A stretch of 62,098 nucleotides of DNA. Origin: Nitrospira sp. GTDB lineage: Bacteria; Nitrospirota; Nitrospiria; Nitrospirales; Nitrospiraceae. The number at the start of each line of letters is the position of its first letter. Positions within the stretch are counted from its first letter, which is position 1. The notes beneath the pieces are model-generated. The model was not told where the DNA came from, made no database searches, and worked only from the letters and a program-made list of their open reading frames with translations. A program made the position numbers and the translations under genes. Location of the stretch: the NCBI GenBank assembly GCA_013140455.1, contig JABFSU010000046.1:1-62098 (forward strand), read 5' to 3'. Positions 28,382 to 35,518 of this stretch are shown piece after piece.

Positions 28382-30205
28382 CTAGTGACCGAAGATTTTT
28401 GGTTCAAGAGCCGGTGGCGGCGGGAGTATTCCCTCTGGAATCTTCACCATCGGCTCACTGGCTAAGAGCAGATAGCCGTAGCGCTTTAAGATCGGCTGGT
28501 AATTCTTGAGATCCCCCGGCAGTTTGTCCACAAAGGATTCCGGTAATAGAATCATCGTGCGGCCAGGCTGGCTCAAGGCCGTGCGGAGATTCGCTTCTTC
28601 ACCCGATCCCACAAAGAGCACTTTTCGCCTGGCATAAAAGGCCGTTGAAGGTCGCGTCGCTCCGTAGGCGATCAGTTGTTCGCCCGGCGCCAGGTTCAAT
28701 CCTGCCGCGTAGGCCAGCTCTTGCTGCGGCGCGACGAAATAGCGATTCGCTGCCGGCAGAACGAAGATCATCAGCGCAAGCACCACGCCGAACAAGGATC
28801 CGCCGGCTGCCCAGAAAGCCCCGCCGCGCCTGGTTTCGGACAGACCGAACAATCCCACCAGTCCCATACCTACCAGCAAGACTGTGGCGGCCATATAGGG
28901 TCCGCTGCCCAGTGAGAGCTGCGTGGCCAACGGATATTCCTTCGTGAGCTTGCTTGCCAGCATCGTGTCGTAGATCCAGGGCAGACAGGCCATGGCTCCC
29001 GCCAGAAGAAATCCCAGCCACATGACCAGGTGAACAGACGCATTGGCACCTCTGGTCGAAGGCTCTCTCACGCAACGCGACCAATAGGAGGCGGTCAGGA
29101 TCGCGGCGGCGGGAAAGAGCGGTCCGATGTAATGGGGGAGCCTCGTCGAAGAGAGCGTGAAAAACACGAAGGTCGCGAAGACCCAGGCGGCGGCGAACCA
29201 GTCTAATTTGTCTGTAGGTGTGGGAACAGGGATGACGGTCGATGAGTCTGGTACCTCGCCGGACATTTCACGTGTCAGGGGTAAGGCCTTACGTTCTGCG
29301 CGCCAGCTCTTGTAGGTCTGCGGCCAGGCAAAGAGCAGCCAGCCGCTCCAGGGGAAAAAGCCGAGCAGCAACACCGGAATGTAGAACAAGAACCCGAAGC
29401 TGTGCCCTTCCATTGGCTTGAGAAAGCGCCCGACAGTGTTGGCCTGCGCGGAGGCAGTGTACTCGCTGCCGTGGAGCCACCACATGCCCGCGTACCAGGG
29501 CAGCGCGATCAGAATCGTCAATGCCGTGCCCGTGAAGGGGCGTCCTTCCTGCCAGAAGGACCGCCACTGTTTCGTGAGAGACAGGTAGAGCGCCACGACG
29601 ATCAGAGGAACAAGGAACCCCACCGGTCCCTTTGCCAGCGTCGCAATGCCCATGGCCACATAGCAGATCCACATCCAGGGGCGTCGCTCGCGCGTGGTCT
29701 GAAATCCCAGCCAGAAGGCGAAGAGCGAGAGCGTGGTGAAAAAGATCAGCACGCTGTCGGTCAGAGCCATGCGATTGAGCCCGATCATCTGAAGATTGAG
29801 CGCCAGCATCAGCGCGGCAAGCAGACCCGTATTCGCATCGCGCAGGCGCGCGAGAAACAGATAGAGCATCAGGACCAGGCCGAGTCCGAAGAGCGCCGAC
29901 GGGAATCGCGCGGCGAACTCGCTGACGCCGAAGGTCTTATACGACGCGCTCATCAGCCAGTAGACCAGTACGGGTTTCGCGTAGCGGGGTTCGTAGTTGA
30001 AGGTGGGGCTCATCCAGTCGCCGGTTTCGAGCATTTCTCGTCCGGCTTCGGCGTTGCGGCCTTCGTCGCGATCGGTCAGGCCAAGCGCGCCTAGATTCCA
30101 AAAGAACAGGATGCCGCAGAGGATCAGCAGCACTGCGATGTGACGAATGACCGGCGATGGATGTCCGGGCGAAAGCCCGGGCAGCTGCGAAGCGGACTCA
30201 CTCAT
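28382..30205 (-). CDS. ArnT/PMT-type (GT39/GT83) membrane glycosyltransferase
   Basis: A 607-residue protein with around a dozen hydrophobic helices. Near the N-terminus the periplasmic loop LTDRDEGRNAEAGREML carries the acidic pair conserved in dolichyl-phosphate-mannose and ArnT-type transferases, followed by YEPRYAKPVLVYWLM. The soluble C-terminal domain ends in the proline-rich LPPPPALEPK. These enzymes move a sugar from a polyprenyl phosphate donor to lipid A or another acceptor. The ATG at 30205 overlaps the previous stop. It is the last of three coupled genes with the LAB_N protein and GT2, which would make the lipid-linked donor. Confidence 0.87.
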   Translation of the reverse strand: MSESASQLPGLSPGHPSPVIRHIAVLLILCGILFFWNLGALGLTDRDEGRNAEAGREMLETGDWMSPTFNYEPRYAKPVLVYWLMSASYKTFGVSEFAARFPSALFGLGLVLMLYLFLARLRDANTGLLAALMLALNLQMIGLNRMALTDSVLIFFTTLSLFAFWLGFQTTRERRPWMWICYVAMGIATLAKGPVGFLVPLIVVALYLSLTKQWRSFWQEGRPFTGTALTILIALPWYAGMWWLHGSEYTASAQANTVGRFLKPMEGHSFGFLFYIPVLLLGFFPWSGWLLFAWPQTYKSWRAERKALPLTREMSGEVPDSSTVIPVPTPTDKLDWFAAAWVFATFVFFTLSSTRLPHYIGPLFPAAAILTASYWSRCVREPSTRGANASVHLVMWLGFLLAGAMACLPWIYDTMLASKLTKEYPLATQLSLGSGPYMAATVLLVGMGLVGLFGLSETRRGGAFWAAGGSLFGVVLALMIFVLPAANRYFVAPQQELAYAAGLNLAPGEQLIAYGATRPSTAFYARRKVLFVGSGEEANLRTALSQPGRTMILLPESFVDKLPGDLKNYQPILKRYGYLLLASEPMVKIPEGILPPPPALEPKIFGH

Positions 30206-30495
30206 CCCTGATCGCTCTTGACGGGGTTGGTGTGCTTCGGGCGGTAGATCAGCATGAGATTGCGCACGTAGACGACGGCGCCGATGCTCTGCCCGGCAAT
30301 GAAGACCGGATCTTTCCGATAGATGGCATAGGCCAGCGTGATGAGGCCTCCAACGAGGCTCAAGTACCAGAAAGAGATCGGCACTTTGCTGGACGCACTG
30401 CGTTCCGAGGCGAGCCATTGCACGATCCACCGGCCGAAGAACAGACCCTGGCCGAGAAATCCCGTGGCAATCCAGATAGTGTCAGTCGTGATCAT
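30202..30495 (-). CDS. Lipid-A-disaccharide synthase N-terminal domain (LAB_N) protein
   Basis: A 97-residue protein with three hydrophobic helices and the LAB_N pattern GLFFGRWIVQWLASER, then PISFWYLSLVGGLITLAYAIY and the conserved DPVFIAGQSIG. Stand-alone LAB_N proteins resemble small multidrug-type membrane subunits and are usually encoded between a DPM1-like GT2 and an ArnT-like GT39, exactly as here. They are proposed to help flip or use polyprenyl-linked sugars, but this has not been shown for this protein. It overlaps the GT39 gene by four bases (ATGA). Confidence 0.88.
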   Translation of the reverse strand: MITTDTIWIATGFLGQGLFFGRWIVQWLASERSASSKVPISFWYLSLVGGLITLAYAIYRKDPVFIAGQSIGAVVYVRNLMLIYRPKHTNPVKSDQG

Positions 30496-30512: not shown

Positions 30513-31244
30513 TTAGTGACGTAGTGTGTACCGTAAACAGCGATGTTGCATCCAGCGCACGGCGATCAGATCGTAGAGGCTCTTGAAGAGCCGGTTGCCG
30601 ACGCCGTATTTGGAAGTCCCGTGCGCCCGGGGATGGTGGCTGACCGGAATTTCGGTGACGGTGAAGCCGTGCATGAGGGCTAAGGCCGGGAAAAACCGGT
30701 GCATGCCGGTAAAGAGCTGCAGCTTGTCCACGACGGCGCGCCGGAAAATTTTCAAGGAACAGCCGGTGTCGTGCACGCGGTCACCGGTCACGGCGCTACG
30801 CACCGCGTTGGCGATGCGCGAAGACAGCTTTCGGACGAGATTATCGTTGCGGCTGGTGCGCCACCCGCACACCAGATCGAATTGCCGTAGAAGGGGCAGC
30901 ATCTTGTCGATGTCGGCCGGATCGTTTTGCAGATCGCCGTCCAGTGTAATGACCAGTTCGCCGGTGGAATGTTTGAATCCGGCGTCGAAGGCGGAGGATT
31001 GTCCGTAGTTCCGGTCGAAGTGCAGGACGCGGACGGCCGGATAGGTTTGTTGGAGCCGGTCCAGCAATTCGCTGCTGCCGTCGCTGCTGCCGTCATCCAC
31101 GTACACGAGTTCGAACGGTGCCGTTTTGGATTCTTCGCGAGCCGACAGGACCTTGAGCACCCGTTCGGTCAGCGGCGTGAGATTGTCCCGTTCATCCTTG
31201 ATGGGAATGACGACGGAGGCCCATGGGCGAGGTGATGGGCTCAT
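30513..31244 (-). CDS. DPM1-like polyprenyl-phosphate glycosyltransferase (GT2)
   Basis: A 243-residue GT-A glycosyltransferase with VVIPIKDERDNL, the nucleotide loop YVDDGSSDGS, the DXD-type DGDLQNDP motif and GWRTSRNDN before the acceptor region. It lacks the C-terminal transmembrane pair of ArnC/GtrB, so it is probably cytosolic and membrane-associated. Its likely product is a polyprenyl-phosphate sugar used by the GT39 enzyme downstream. It lies 17 bases upstream of the LAB_N gene on the same strand. The sugar cannot be read from sequence. Confidence 0.9.
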   Translation of the reverse strand: MSPSPRPWASVVIPIKDERDNLTPLTERVLKVLSAREESKTAPFELVYVDDGSSDGSSELLDRLQQTYPAVRVLHFDRNYGQSSAFDAGFKHSTGELVITLDGDLQNDPADIDKMLPLLRQFDLVCGWRTSRNDNLVRKLSSRIANAVRSAVTGDRVHDTGCSLKIFRRAVVDKLQLFTGMHRFFPALALMHGFTVTEIPVSHHPRAHGTSKYGVGNRLFKSLYDLIAVRWMQHRCLRYTLRH

Positions 31245-31366: not shown

Positions 31367-31789
31367 TTACTTGACCACCAGCACCGTGCAAGGGGACAAG
31401 CGCACGAGATTTTGCGACGTGCCGCCCCAGATGCGGCCGAAGATGTTGGAGTGCCCGGTGAAGCCGACGACCAGGAGATCGAAGTTCCCGTCTTTGGCAA
31501 ACGTTGTGATGGCCTCTACGGGATGTCCGGGCACGACATGGGACGTGAGTGTGACTCTCTGGGTGGCCGCCACCGCTTCCGCTTCCTGTATCACGCGGTG
31601 GAAAAACTCCCGGGCCTCCTCCTTCGCTTCGTCCAGTTCGCCCATCAGCGCGCCGTAGCGCGGCAAGTGCTCCTCGACGGAAATTTCATGCAACTCCGCT
31701 CCGTCGCGCTTCGCGAGAGCCAGCGCCGTTTGGAGCGCTTTCTTGGCGCCCTCGGATCCGTCGTTGCCCACCAGGATTTTTCGAAACAT
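31367..31789 (-). CDS. Universal stress protein (UspA family)
   Basis: A 140-residue single-domain Usp with start MFRKILVGNDGSEGAKKAL and the phosphate-binding signature GFTGHSNIFGRIWGGTSQN near the C-terminus, followed by SPCTVLVV. This indicates an ATP-binding type protein, though the final spacing differs by one residue from the G-2x-G-9x-G-S/T consensus. An upstream in-frame extension is ignored because a GGAGGGAGG ribosome site lies just before the ATG at 31789. It is the gene after the cation/proton antiporter, 59 bases away on the same strand. Confidence 0.9.
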   Translation of the reverse strand: MFRKILVGNDGSEGAKKALQTALALAKRDGAELHEISVEEHLPRYGALMGELDEAKEEAREFFHRVIQEAEAVAATQRVTLTSHVVPGHPVEAITTFAKDGNFDLLVVGFTGHSNIFGRIWGGTSQNLVRLSPCTVLVVK

Positions 31790-31848
31790 GGTCAGGCCTC
31801 CCTCCGTGAGATGCAATAGCGGCGTTATCGAACTGAACCAGACTGAGG

Positions 31849-33000
31849 CTATTTCGGCGGCTTGTTGTCCGTCCAGCGTTCTTCGGCAGGCTTGCCGCCG
31901 GGGTCGAACCATCGCTCAGCGATCAGCGTGGGGATAATCGCCGTCAGGATCACCACGGTCACCAGTGTCGCATACTGCTCGCGGGTGATCAGATGATGTT
32001 CCAGTCCGAAGAGCGACGAAATAGTCCCGAAGGTCAGGCCTGTCGCCATCAGCAGCGTGGTGTACATGCCTTCCTTCGGGTGGAATCGAAACAGTCTGGT
32101 CAAGGGCCAGACGCTCACCAGCTTTGCGGCCGTGTTGACGGTGAAGAACAGGCCGATCAATGCCGTGGTGACGAGCACGGCCTTGAGGCTGACCAGCACG
32201 CCGGCCTTGAGAAAATAGAAGGGCGTCAGAATCGTCAGGGCGATGGTTCGTAAGCGGTGGGCCAGGTTCTTGTTGGCGAGAAAAATCGGCGCCAGCACGA
32301 GGCCGACGAGGTAGGCGGGGAGCACCGCCTCGCTTTGAGCCGCGTTCGCCAGGGCGCCGAGGGCGAAGAGGATCAGCAGCACGAACTTGAGTTCAGGCTC
32401 ACTGATCCGCTTCCCGACCCGGTTGAAAAACCAGCGGGTGATGCCGGGCAGTTGCCAGAGGGTGACTGCCGTCACCGCAAGAAAGACGACCAGCCACCAG
32501 TCGTACCGCGCGAACAGCAGCCCCAACGCCAGCACCGATCCCAGATCGGTCACGAAGCAGGCAGCGAGGATGATTTTGCCCAGTTCGAGTTCATTGTGGC
32601 CGCGCTCGACGAGCACGGTATAGACCACGGCAACGGAGGTGGCGCAGAGGGCGATACCCGCCACCTGCGACGCCTCAAGCGACCAGCCAGCCCCCCAATA
32701 GGCCACGGCCGTCACGCTGAGGCAGGGCACCAGAAACGACGCCAGCCCGATCCCGATCGTCTCCTTCCACTTATTTTTCATGACGTCAAGATCGATTTCG
32801 GCACCGGCGAGAAACGTCAGGACGGCACTGCCGAACCCCGCCAGTGACAGGATCCACGAGGTGGGTTGAATGCCCAGCACATTGCCGCCGGCGATGCCGA
32901 CGCAGATTTCCACCAGCGCGACGGACACGCCGATGCGCACAGAGATGAGTGACGCCAGCAAGGCCATCCCCATCCAGATCGCGGCGGTCTCCCAGGTCAT
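31849..33000 (-). CDS. Cation:proton antiporter (CPA2 family, KefB/GerN type)
   Basis: A 383-residue membrane protein with about 11-12 hydrophobic helices. The CPA2 hallmarks are the LVEICVGIAGGNVLG segment, the FLAGAEIDLD motif and the ATSVAVVYTVL / CFVTDLGSVLALG region that holds the ion-binding aspartate. It has no TrkA-N or other regulatory domain at the C-terminus. It probably exchanges sodium or potassium for protons. It sits between a universal stress protein and the ABC-like gene on the same strand, which suggests a stress-response group. Confidence 0.88.
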   Translation of the reverse strand: MTWETAAIWMGMALLASLISVRIGVSVALVEICVGIAGGNVLGIQPTSWILSLAGFGSAVLTFLAGAEIDLDVMKNKWKETIGIGLASFLVPCLSVTAVAYWGAGWSLEASQVAGIALCATSVAVVYTVLVERGHNELELGKIILAACFVTDLGSVLALGLLFARYDWWLVVFLAVTAVTLWQLPGITRWFFNRVGKRISEPELKFVLLILFALGALANAAQSEAVLPAYLVGLVLAPIFLANKNLAHRLRTIALTILTPFYFLKAGVLVSLKAVLVTTALIGLFFTVNTAAKLVSVWPLTRLFRFHPKEGMYTTLLMATGLTFGTISSLFGLEHHLITREQYATLVTVVILTAIIPTLIAERWFDPGGKPAEERWTDNKPPK

Positions 33001-33020: not shown

Positions 33021-34703
33021 TTACGCGACCGTCACGCGGCGGTCGACATAGGTGGCAAACGTCGGATCGTTGGTGACGAAGATGACCGACCAGGGTTCGT
33101 CCTTGGAGCAGAGCCGGCGCAAAATCGTTTCGCGTAGCGTGGGAATCATGTTGTGCAGGGTGCCGTCGATGATCAGGACATGCGGCCGGATCACAATGGC
33201 GCGGGCGAGCAGGAGGCGCAGTGTCTGACTCAACGTGAACTGATCGCGGTGGCCCGTCACCTGTGTCGCCAGGCCGTCCGGAAAGTGATCGATCTCATCG
33301 TCCAGCTCTACGAAATGGAGCGCCCACAGAATATCGTCATGGGAGATGGCAGGGCGGCCCAGTGTCAGATTGTCCTCGATCGTCCCTTCGAGCAGCGTGG
33401 GCTGTGAGTCGAGCATCAAGCCGCGATAGGGGTCAATCGACTCCAGGCTCACCTCGACCAGATTCATATCGTTGTAACGCACCACGCCGCCGGTGGGAGG
33501 GAGCAGGCCGGCCAAAACCTTGGTCACGGCGGTCTTTTGCACATTGGACTGGCAGAGCAGGGCGATTTTCTCCCCGGCGACGACGTTCAAATCGAGATGC
33601 TCGAACAGCGGAGTCGAGTTCGGATGGGCGAAGGAAAGATTGCGTGCGGCGATCGAGATCCCCTCCAATCCGAAATGTCCCATCGGCACAATCGCTTTGG
33701 CGCCATGGCTATCCTGGGGGAGTGAAAAAAACGCATTCATCTCACGGAAGGAGACGAATGCGAAAAACATGTGGACCATGCGGCGCGCCAGCGTGTCCAT
33801 GTTCAGGAGCAGCTGCCCCGCCAGCAGTTCTGCGGCGGCGAACTGGCCGACCGTGAGTTGGCCGGTTGAGACGAGCATGCCGGCTGTGGCGATCATGCCG
33901 GTATGGCCGACGACTTGCCAGAGCGCCGCCGCCTTATATTGGCGGCCGGTCAGCAGGTCAGAGCGGCGTTGCCGCACGCGGGCGTAGGCCTTCGTCAGCG
34001 TATCGGTTTTCTGCAAGAGATAGGGGCTGTGTCCGGCGGCGCGCAAGTGCGGGAGATTTGCCGCGATGTTTTGCATCCAGTGGTAGATCTCATAATTCAG
34101 TCGCGACATTTCCAGCGTAATCAGGAAGCCGCCCCGGCCGAACAGGGTCAGCAGGACCACGAAGCCGGTGATCAGCGTGACGTTGTAGAGCAGGAAATAG
34201 GGGTGGAACAAGACCAGCATGGTCATGCCGATGCTTCCGACCACGGCCACATTGAACAGATCGGCCACCATGGCGACGAGGGCGCGGGTCAGCAGGTCGG
34301 CTTCGGCAAAGCGGTGCGCATGCTGCGGGAGAAACGATTCTTCCTGAAGCCGCGGCAGCGTCTCGGTGAAGGCGATAGCAATGCGGGTGTAGATGCGTTG
34401 CTGCAAGGTTTCTACGGCCCGACCTTGCAAGATGCGGAAGGCGGCCACGCCCGTGAGGGCGCAGCCCACGACGAGGGCCAGCGTGAAGATCATGGCCGGC
34501 TGCACGGCAAAAGAAAAGGTGCTGACCAGTTCCTGCACGGCGATCGGGACGCAGAGCATGAACATTCCGATGGCCAGGGCATAGGACGCGATGATGCCGA
34601 GCATCTTCCGCTCAAGCCGGATCAGTAACCCCAATTGAGTCAGGATGTCGTCGAGGATGTTACGGAGCTGATACTGAGAGAATGCAGGATCCGGTGCGGC
34701 CAT
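33021..34703 (-). CDS. ABC exporter-like protein with degenerate nucleotide-binding domain
   Basis: A 560-residue fusion of a six-helix ABC exporter membrane domain (about 30-320) and a C-terminal ABC domain (about 345-560). Fold markers survive: AARNLSFAH, GEKIALL, VLAGLLPPTGG, LLEGTIEDNL and LLLARAIV. The catalytic motifs do not. Walker A reads CQSNVQKT at 384-391, with all glycines lost and only Lys-Thr kept. The signature LSGGQ has become LSQTL (491-495). Walker B ends IIDG at 511-514, so the catalytic glutamate is glycine. The switch histidine is Asn545. ATP hydrolysis by the usual route is unlikely. The frame is intact with a good GGAG site, so it is not an obvious pseudogene. Confidence 0.85.
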   Translation of the reverse strand: MAAPDPAFSQYQLRNILDDILTQLGLLIRLERKMLGIIASYALAIGMFMLCVPIAVQELVSTFSFAVQPAMIFTLALVVGCALTGVAAFRILQGRAVETLQQRIYTRIAIAFTETLPRLQEESFLPQHAHRFAEADLLTRALVAMVADLFNVAVVGSIGMTMLVLFHPYFLLYNVTLITGFVVLLTLFGRGGFLITLEMSRLNYEIYHWMQNIAANLPHLRAAGHSPYLLQKTDTLTKAYARVRQRRSDLLTGRQYKAAALWQVVGHTGMIATAGMLVSTGQLTVGQFAAAELLAGQLLLNMDTLARRMVHMFFAFVSFREMNAFFSLPQDSHGAKAIVPMGHFGLEGISIAARNLSFAHPNSTPLFEHLDLNVVAGEKIALLCQSNVQKTAVTKVLAGLLPPTGGVVRYNDMNLVEVSLESIDPYRGLMLDSQPTLLEGTIEDNLTLGRPAISHDDILWALHFVELDDEIDHFPDGLATQVTGHRDQFTLSQTLRLLLARAIVIRPHVLIIDGTLHNMIPTLRETILRRLCSKDEPWSVIFVTNDPTFATYVDRRVTVA

Positions 34704-34848: not shown

Positions 34849-35397
34849 TCACTTCCCGGCGACAACCGTGAAGCGCATGGTACCGATCAGACTCATCTCG
34901 CTCACTTGTTCGCCGGCGTGGATTTCGACCTTGTAACGGCCCGGCGTCCACCGTTCTTTGGGCGGGAGCAGTTTCAAGTACCCGCTCTCATCTTCCAGGG
35001 CCATGTGCATGGCATCCTCACTAACGATCGTTTCCGGCTCGATGCCCGCGATCCCTTCGGGAAAGCATCTGCCGAATACTTTGAAGGCCTGGTAGTGTTG
35101 ATGGAGGGCGAAGACGATGAAGATGGCCGGTGTATCGGCGACAAATCGTTCGGTCGGTTTGACCGGCACAATTTCGTGGGTCTGGCGAAAGCCCAGTTCC
35201 TCCTCAAATCCTTCGGCCATGGTAATGGAGCGGAACATGCCCTGCGGAGGGGCATCGAAGTCGTAGGGTTTGGCATCTTCCGGCCGATTCTGAAACTCTG
35301 GGATAGGAAGATTTTTTGTGATTGGCAGTTCCCCGGCCCAGAGAGAGGCCGGCTCAACGATCAGCGCAGCAAGGGCAATGAGAAGGGGCCGGATCAT
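34849..35397 (-). CDS. Exported protein of unknown function
   Basis: A 182-residue protein with a signal peptide (MIRPLLIALAALIVEP through SLWAG). The mature part has a FVADTPAIFIVFALHQHYQ strand, an acidic central section and a C-terminal ERWTPGRYKVEIHAGEQV to MRFTVVAGK segment that reads like an Ig-type or DUF-type beta domain. A longer in-frame N-terminus exists, but the ATG at 35397 starts the signal peptide directly. It is 145 bases downstream of the ABC-like gene's start, on the same strand. I do not recognise the family. Confidence 0.7.
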   Translation of the reverse strand: MIRPLLIALAALIVEPASLWAGELPITKNLPIPEFQNRPEDAKPYDFDAPPQGMFRSITMAEGFEEELGFRQTHEIVPVKPTERFVADTPAIFIVFALHQHYQAFKVFGRCFPEGIAGIEPETIVSEDAMHMALEDESGYLKLLPPKERWTPGRYKVEIHAGEQVSEMSLIGTMRFTVVAGK

Positions 35398-35446
35398 ATG
35401 CCAGGTCTGGTACACCCCCTCAACAGTGAGAGTCAAGGTCAAGCCT

Positions 35447-35518
35447 GGGGAAAGGGCCATCAGTCCTTAGCTATCAGCTTCGGAGCGAAGGTTGAGAGCT
35501 AACGGCTCCTATTTCCCC
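35447..35518 (+). repeat. Long imperfect inverted repeat between divergent genes
   Basis: GGGGAAA (35447-35453) pairs with TTTCCCC (35512-35518). Inside, TTAGCT (35467-35472) pairs with AGCTAA (35497-35502), and CTTCG (35478-35482) pairs with CGAAG (35486-35490) around a 3-base loop. The whole element would fold as a hairpin of about 72 bases. It lies between the exported-protein gene (-) and the methyltransferase gene (+). It may be a repeat element of the REP/MITE kind or a structured regulatory region. Confidence 0.55.

Follow-up and report, generated by a model that had tools for sequence, protein, structure and literature searches.

The window, a stretch of 62,098 nucleotides of Nitrospira sp. 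(contig JABFSU010000046.1), carries a gene whose product belongs to a family of ABC exporter homologues, here called pseudo-ABC proteins. Judged from sequence comparison, this family is old, actively maintained in three bacterial phyla and degenerate in all of its members, and an HlyD-type adaptor and a TolC-type channel of its own are inherited along with it. The chances appear about even that the window protein is an ATPase-dead inner-membrane subunit of a tripartite conduit resembling the type I secretion system (T1SS), probably working with a paralogue named alpha or derived from it.

An exporter fold with an eroded ABC cassette

As originally predicted the gene is intact, a single open reading frame of 560 codons, but it lies on the minus strand. 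Details of the gene, its motifs and its neighbours are presented in Table 1.

Table 1. Location of the features described in the text, in window coordinates
Feature	Position	Strand	Evidence
Pseudo-ABC exporter, beta-type paralogue (subfamily A), 560 aa	33021..34703	-	Open reading frame, family, tree
Exporter transmembrane domain, residues about 15-345	33669..34661	-	Full-length profile match to ComA and HlyB; helix pattern in low-confidence model; tree of the transmembrane domain only
Degenerate nucleotide-binding domain, residues 346-560	33024..33668	-	Pfam ABC_tran, 32 bits; AF2 model; Foldseek
Eroded Walker A CQSNVQKT, residues 384-391; Lys and Thr retained, Gly positions lost	33531..33554	-	Alignment
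Q-loop column, Asp (D432) and not Gln	33408..33410	-	Alignment
Eroded signature FTLSQ, residues 489-493, opposite LSGGQ	33225..33239	-	Alignment
Walker B LIIDG, residues 510-514; Asp retained, catalytic Glu is Gly	33162..33176	-	Alignment
H-loop Asn (N545), not the switch His	33069..33071	-	Alignment
CPA2-type cation/proton antiporter, 20 bp downstream; optional neighbour	31849..33000	-	Pfam Na_H_Exchanger
Universal stress protein; optional neighbour	31367..31816	-	Pfam Usp
Conserved protein of 203 aa, without family match, upstream	34849..35460	-	Not specific to pseudo-ABC
Family-2 glycosyltransferase (GT2), downstream	30513..31244	-	Pfam and neighbourhood
LAB_N-domain protein, downstream	30202..30495	-	Pfam
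PMT/ArnT-like glycosyltransferase, downstream	28382..30133	-	Pfam; start from home-made gene caller

ABC_tran (32 bits) is the sole Pfam match of the window protein. The claim that the exporter membrane domain has been kept is supported by phmmer, which aligns residues 24–555 to ComA, and by distant homologues from Bacteroidota and sphingomonads, which do match PF00664, but not by Pfam ABC_membrane, which stays below threshold for the window protein itself. Profile alignments to ComA (18–553) and HlyB (28–553) span nearly the full protein, and the best NCBIfam matches are CydC, LssB, NHLM and other exporter models, all scoring far under their cut-offs. The AF2 model of residues 341–560 (pLDDT 80.6) was matched by Foldseek to the nucleotide-binding domains (NBDs) of TM287/288, ComA and HlyB with TM scores of 0.85–0.88. 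AlphaFold2 modelling of the full-length protein with 11 orthologues was poor (pLDDT 47.5), and this model was kept out of the fold searches. Profile alignment and NBD fold together give the architecture of an ABC exporter (type IV fold), consisting of a six-helix membrane domain and an ABC cassette, and the fold markers named earlier (LAGLLPPTGG, LLEGTIEDNL and LLLARAIV) are all found in the protein.

The canonical set of ATPase motifs, that is Walker A GxxGxGK[ST], the LSGGQ signature, the Asp-Glu pair of Walker B and the H-loop His, is not present in the window protein. Alignment confirmed the predicted Walker A (CQSNVQKT) and the replacement of the catalytic Glu by Gly (G514) and of the switch His by Asn (N545). 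The signature is eroded as proposed, but the proposed reading LSQTL is off register by two; the true column is FTLSQ (489–493), which retains the final Gln. In addition to these losses, Asp occupies the Q-loop column, His (H360) stands where the A-loop aromatic is expected and the D-loop Asp has given way to Ile. The view that every catalytic element had been lost is overstated, as Lys390 and Thr391 of Walker A, Asp513 of Walker B and Gln493 of the signature are still present. The motif columns are nevertheless not those of the ATPase-competent ABC energiser of a T1SS. Five canonical exporters from the same genome, used as controls, keep all of the motifs, with a single signature variant (LSVGQ), which argues that the erosion in the window protein is neither chance nor an artefact of the reading frame.

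Degeneracy is shared by a family that is maintained by selection

The alignment of the motif columns covered 72 members from Nitrospirota, 4 from Bacteroidota and 6 from sphingomonads, with 12 canonical exporters as controls. In all 72 Nitrospirota members, which are Nitrospirales, Gly stands in place of the catalytic Glu, and the switch His is missing, as are the first and third glycines of Walker A. A canonical signature, Asp-Glu pair or His was found in none of the 10 Bacteroidota and sphingomonad members, where the degree of erosion varies, Riemerella retaining a Walker A and the sphingomonads none. Lys or Arg at position 140 and His at position 167 of the membrane domain occur without exception in the members of the three groups and seldom in the canonical set.

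Loss of the catalytic motifs could also mark a decaying pseudogene of an ordinary exporter. To this explanation we assign next to no probability, and relaxed selection or a broken frame can be rejected: the frame is intact, orthologues of 68–97% identity occur in many genomes, the same losses are found family-wide and dN/dS lies far below 1. Compared with orthologues, dN/dS is 0.03–0.26 in the membrane domain and the cassette alike, the cassette being somewhat looser; values for distant pairs are rough because of high synonymous divergence, while close pairs give 0.03–0.13 over the whole gene. The alignment of homologues excludes a lone decayed copy among canonical relatives, and the original suggestion of selection for a non-hydrolytic role gains support from the shared losses and from the low dN/dS in both domains.

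One such role would be the binding of ATP or another nucleotide without hydrolysis, so that the cassette acts as a nucleotide-sensing gate or regulator, comparable to the degenerate sites known from exporters that are heterodimers. Such sites can keep ATP bound for minutes (PMC7756269), and the residues retained in the window protein (Lys390, Thr391 and Asp513) would suit such a role, as would the retention of the Walker A Lys in 61 of 72 and of the Walker B Asp in 62 of 72 Nitrospirota members, of the Lys in 4/4 Bacteroidota members and of the GKT of Walker A in some of the tandem copies described below. We nevertheless consider this explanation unlikely. Neither the A-loop aromatic nor the Walker A glycines nor the Q-loop Gln survive, and since the sphingomonads have no Walker A and several Nitrospirales members have Arg or Gly instead of the Lys, binding is not a requirement of the family as a whole. 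By these residues, a role for bound nucleotide seems unlikely in the sphingomonads and possible in Nitrospirota and Bacteroidota.

Distribution and phylogeny

The window gene is one of three family members in its genome. Another, on contig C117, is full-length (47% identity), and the third, on contig C43, is cut by the contig end. Orthologues of the window gene occur in N. moscoviensis and N. defluvii. Members were found in 39 of 59 related genomes and, in a sample of the phylum, in 111 of 395 genomes from 18 genera, all within two families of the order. The spread beyond Nitrospirota is based on plasmid records only, in which tblastn identified homologues from Persicobacter and Sphingomonadales covering most of the length at about 23–25% identity; homologues from Aureibacter and Riemerella were reached via Persicobacter. 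The Persicobacter reading frames (L102:7512-9686 and L103:7512-9686) carry about 150 additional residues at the N-terminus, which might be what is left of a C39-like domain.

In a maximum-likelihood tree of full-length sequences including 12 canonical exporters, all 29 sampled pseudo-ABC proteins fall on one side of a single branch (100/100). The tree built from the membrane domain only gives the same grouping (SH-aLRT 100), and the grouping is therefore not produced by the shared loss of motif letters. The program gave a warning of long branches that meet, and the root of the split could still shift with canonical neighbours from more phyla.

Adaptor and channel partners

The commonest neighbours of the family are an HlyD-type adaptor and a TolC-type outer membrane channel (OEP). 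The gene order is HlyD-OEP-pseudoABC in Nitrospirales, with three successive OEP genes in some lineages, and pseudoABC-HlyD-TolC in Bacteroidota and sphingomonads. Between phyla, the adaptors of the family match one another with E values of about 1e-30 to 1e-70, whereas the canonical T1SS HlyD tested is matched at about 1e-7 at best. Of 59 genomes, the 39 with a pseudo-ABC gene are also the 39 with an adaptor gene, and at the thresholds used no genome has one of the two alone. Shared ancestry inflates this co-occurrence, but among the genomes that lack both genes are two members of the genus and several of the order. The three genes of a T1SS (ABC, HlyD and TolC) stand together in the family operons, whereas at the window locus HlyD and TolC are absent and the partners are on contig C117. 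Since HlyD and TolC lie on another contig in this genome, they were invisible to the original prediction, which had suggested as an example a role coupled to the antiporter and the universal stress protein (Usp). Conservation of these two as neighbours is not supported; the conserved partners of the family are the HlyD-type and TolC-type proteins.

In the alpha operons L061, L062, L063, L065, L068 and L069 of other Nitrospira, three tandem and different TolC-type genes precede the pseudo-ABC gene. TolC channels are trimers, and a heterotrimeric channel made from the three products is therefore conceivable. No gene for a secreted substrate, whether of RTX type, with another C-terminal signal or with a leader peptide, was noticed in the neighbourhoods read. 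LysR regulators are located near many pseudo-ABC operons (L063:3032-3931, and similarly in L058, L062, L065 and L067-L069), and that of L063 scores 239 bits, above the NhaR equivalog cut-off of 219. On a Sphingobium plasmid, the inorganic carbon transporter subunit DabA (L109:1141-3693) is encoded 44 bp upstream of a pseudo-ABC-adaptor-TolC operon. In one subgroup, the alpha pseudo-ABC gene is followed by that of a 262-aa membrane protein (L053:520-1308, also L056, L060 and L070) with a four-helix MCP sensory domain and without a signalling domain.

Alpha and beta paralogues and the position of the window gene

In several genera, two tandem pseudo-ABC genes follow HlyD-OEP. A tree rooted on the other family of the Nitrospirales reveals an old split within Nitrospiraceae into two clades, named alpha and beta, of which one has support of 100/100 and the other of 93/89, and each of the seven tandem pairs consists of one alpha and one beta. 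Definition of beta as the second gene of the tandem was rejected, as either of the two can come first. The window gene and its orthologues (subfamily A) lie inside the beta clade (100/100); the C43 copy (subfamily C) is also beta and the C117 operon copy is alpha. A PAS histidine kinase comes after the C-type beta copy (L003:1397-2782), and in L071 a gene of the response-regulator-like cluster c17 does.

The genome of the window has three pseudo-ABC genes against one family HlyD and one operon OEP, which form with alpha the HlyD-TolC-alpha operon on C117. Among the sampled genomes, with fragmented assemblies set aside, pseudo-ABC genes outnumber adaptors only where A- or C-type copies are present. 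Beta copies are found only together with alpha; since alpha is near-universal in the genus, this pattern is weak evidence for pairing. No HlyD or TolC gene adjoins the window copy, nor the remaining copies of subfamily A, and assembly of the window protein with the products of the C117 operon is therefore inferred. On the simplest view, the window protein would be a beta subunit that has moved away from the operon and shares the adaptor and channel of C117, or else a derivative that has ceased to need them.

Antiporter, universal stress protein and other local neighbours

According to the original prediction, the window protein could be a regulator or receptor acting with the adjacent antiporter and Usp, and might mark an antiporter-associated pseudo-ABC system. 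The 20 bp gap to the antiporter on the same strand favours such a link, and hints at ion or pH physiology come from the NhaR-like regulator found next to several of the alpha operons and from DabA next to one copy in a sphingomonad. However, the antiporter adjoins 6 and the Usp 5 of the subfamily-A copies examined and neither is found beside any other family member examined; both appear as optional inserts between the pseudo-ABC gene and the GT2 block. Moreover, an antiporter of 70% identity is present in two genomes that lack the family at the threshold used. An antiporter-associated system is thus not borne out, and we give the regulator or receptor role little credence. The NhaR-like regulator, the antiporter beside some beta copies and DabA hint at ion physiology and prove nothing.

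The 203-aa protein is found upstream in every subfamily-A locus showing that side, except the truncated L044. It was rejected as a specific partner, being present in 55 of 59 genomes including some without pseudo-ABC. Loci of the N. defluvii type (L045, L047 and L051) encode, between the 203-aa gene and the pseudo-ABC gene, a membrane protein some 245 aa long without Pfam or NCBIfam match.

Absence of an intact catalytic site

The catalytic site of ABC proteins is composite, with Walker A, Walker B and His contributed by one half and the signature by the other (PMC7756269). As both sides have been lost in the window protein, it could form no canonical site either as a homodimer or with a canonical partner. 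Complementary degeneracy, in which one half would supply Walker A/B and the other the signature, was tested in the tandem pairs and not found: both members are degenerate in signature, Glu and His in 7/7 alpha/beta pairs. Composite sites that cannot be built, together with pairs that are not complementary, make ATP hydrolysis by the family very unlikely as far as its motifs can tell.

Among exporters, heterodimers in which one site is dead are common (PMC7756269), and several canonical exporters are encoded in the genome, so the window protein might be the inactive half of a heteromer whose ATPase is supplied by a canonical ABC subunit encoded elsewhere. We regard this arrangement as quite improbable. 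With Walker A/B/His and signature both lost, a dimer with a canonical half would still be without an intact site; no canonical exporter gene recurs beside the family, and in the tandem pairs both genes are degenerate. A canonical T1SS-type ABC as obligatory partner was rejected, its gene being missing from 14 of 39 genomes with pseudo-ABC.

We return to the ATPase-dead subunit of a tripartite conduit as our preferred reading. On this reading the window gene codes for an intact half-exporter, made up of a membrane domain and an ABC cassette, in which the cassette has given up ATP hydrolysis. The membrane domains may form the inner-membrane base of a conduit across both membranes, with the dead cassettes holding the dimer and the adaptor in place. 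Transport would be driven by something other than ATP hydrolysis, such as an ion gradient, the gradient of the substrate itself or a separate protein. For the window copy, the likeliest roles are those of a partner or substitute of alpha on the shared adaptor and channel, or of an independent derivative of the base.

Relation to known systems and significance

Among the closest known systems is the T1SS (HlyB/LssB/PrtD-type ABC, HlyD and TolC), which has the same fold in each of its three parts and the same gene neighbourhood, gives full-length profile matches and includes in HlyB an NBD fold like that of the window protein. The pseudo-ABC proteins differ from it in having no complete catalytic motif, in scoring 128 bits against NCBIfam cut-offs of 329 or more, and in that the family adaptor and ABC each form their own clades. 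Fold and T1SS-like partners are known, and the one thing lacking is the energising step; the system can therefore be regarded as a variant of the T1SS-like tripartite type.

Heterodimeric ABC exporters (TM287/288, TAP and Pdr5) have likewise lost catalytic Glu, His and signature, and the alpha/beta tandem resembles a heterodimer. However, they keep one intact composite site, whereas in pseudo-ABC both halves are dead in Walker A/B/His and signature, and no canonical composite site is found in the seven tandem pairs. The ABC subunits of NHLM/NHLP bacteriocin export are among the best profile matches, aligned over the full length, but the pseudo-ABC proteins are far under the cut-off and no microcin maturation genes were noticed nearby. 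SecA_DEAD-HlyD loci, the nearest case in print, of which one Nitrospirae example is described, also have HlyD, and sometimes OEP, without a normal ABC energiser; there a SecA-like ATPase is present and an ABC homologue is not, whereas pseudo-ABC loci have an ABC-fold protein and no linked ATPase (PMC4452313). A literature search that covered few subscription papers or preprints found no published description of the family.

Plasmid records label genes of the family as 'ABC transporter ATP-binding protein' or similar, and its members match generic ABC profiles. Automatic annotation therefore hides the family, and counts of T1SS in Nitrospira, some Bacteroidota and sphingomonads may be inflated. 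It is possible, and we suggest it tentatively, that the family represents widespread envelope-spanning tripartite transporters with an ABC-fold subunit that does not hydrolyse ATP, energised, if at all, by other means, the cassettes serving a structural or sensing role. Export driven by ATP is what defines type I secretion and ABC efflux. A family under strong selection in three phyla, with architecture, adaptor and channel retained but the hydrolytic machinery lost, would provide a natural test of which functions of an exporter need ATP and which need only the fold.
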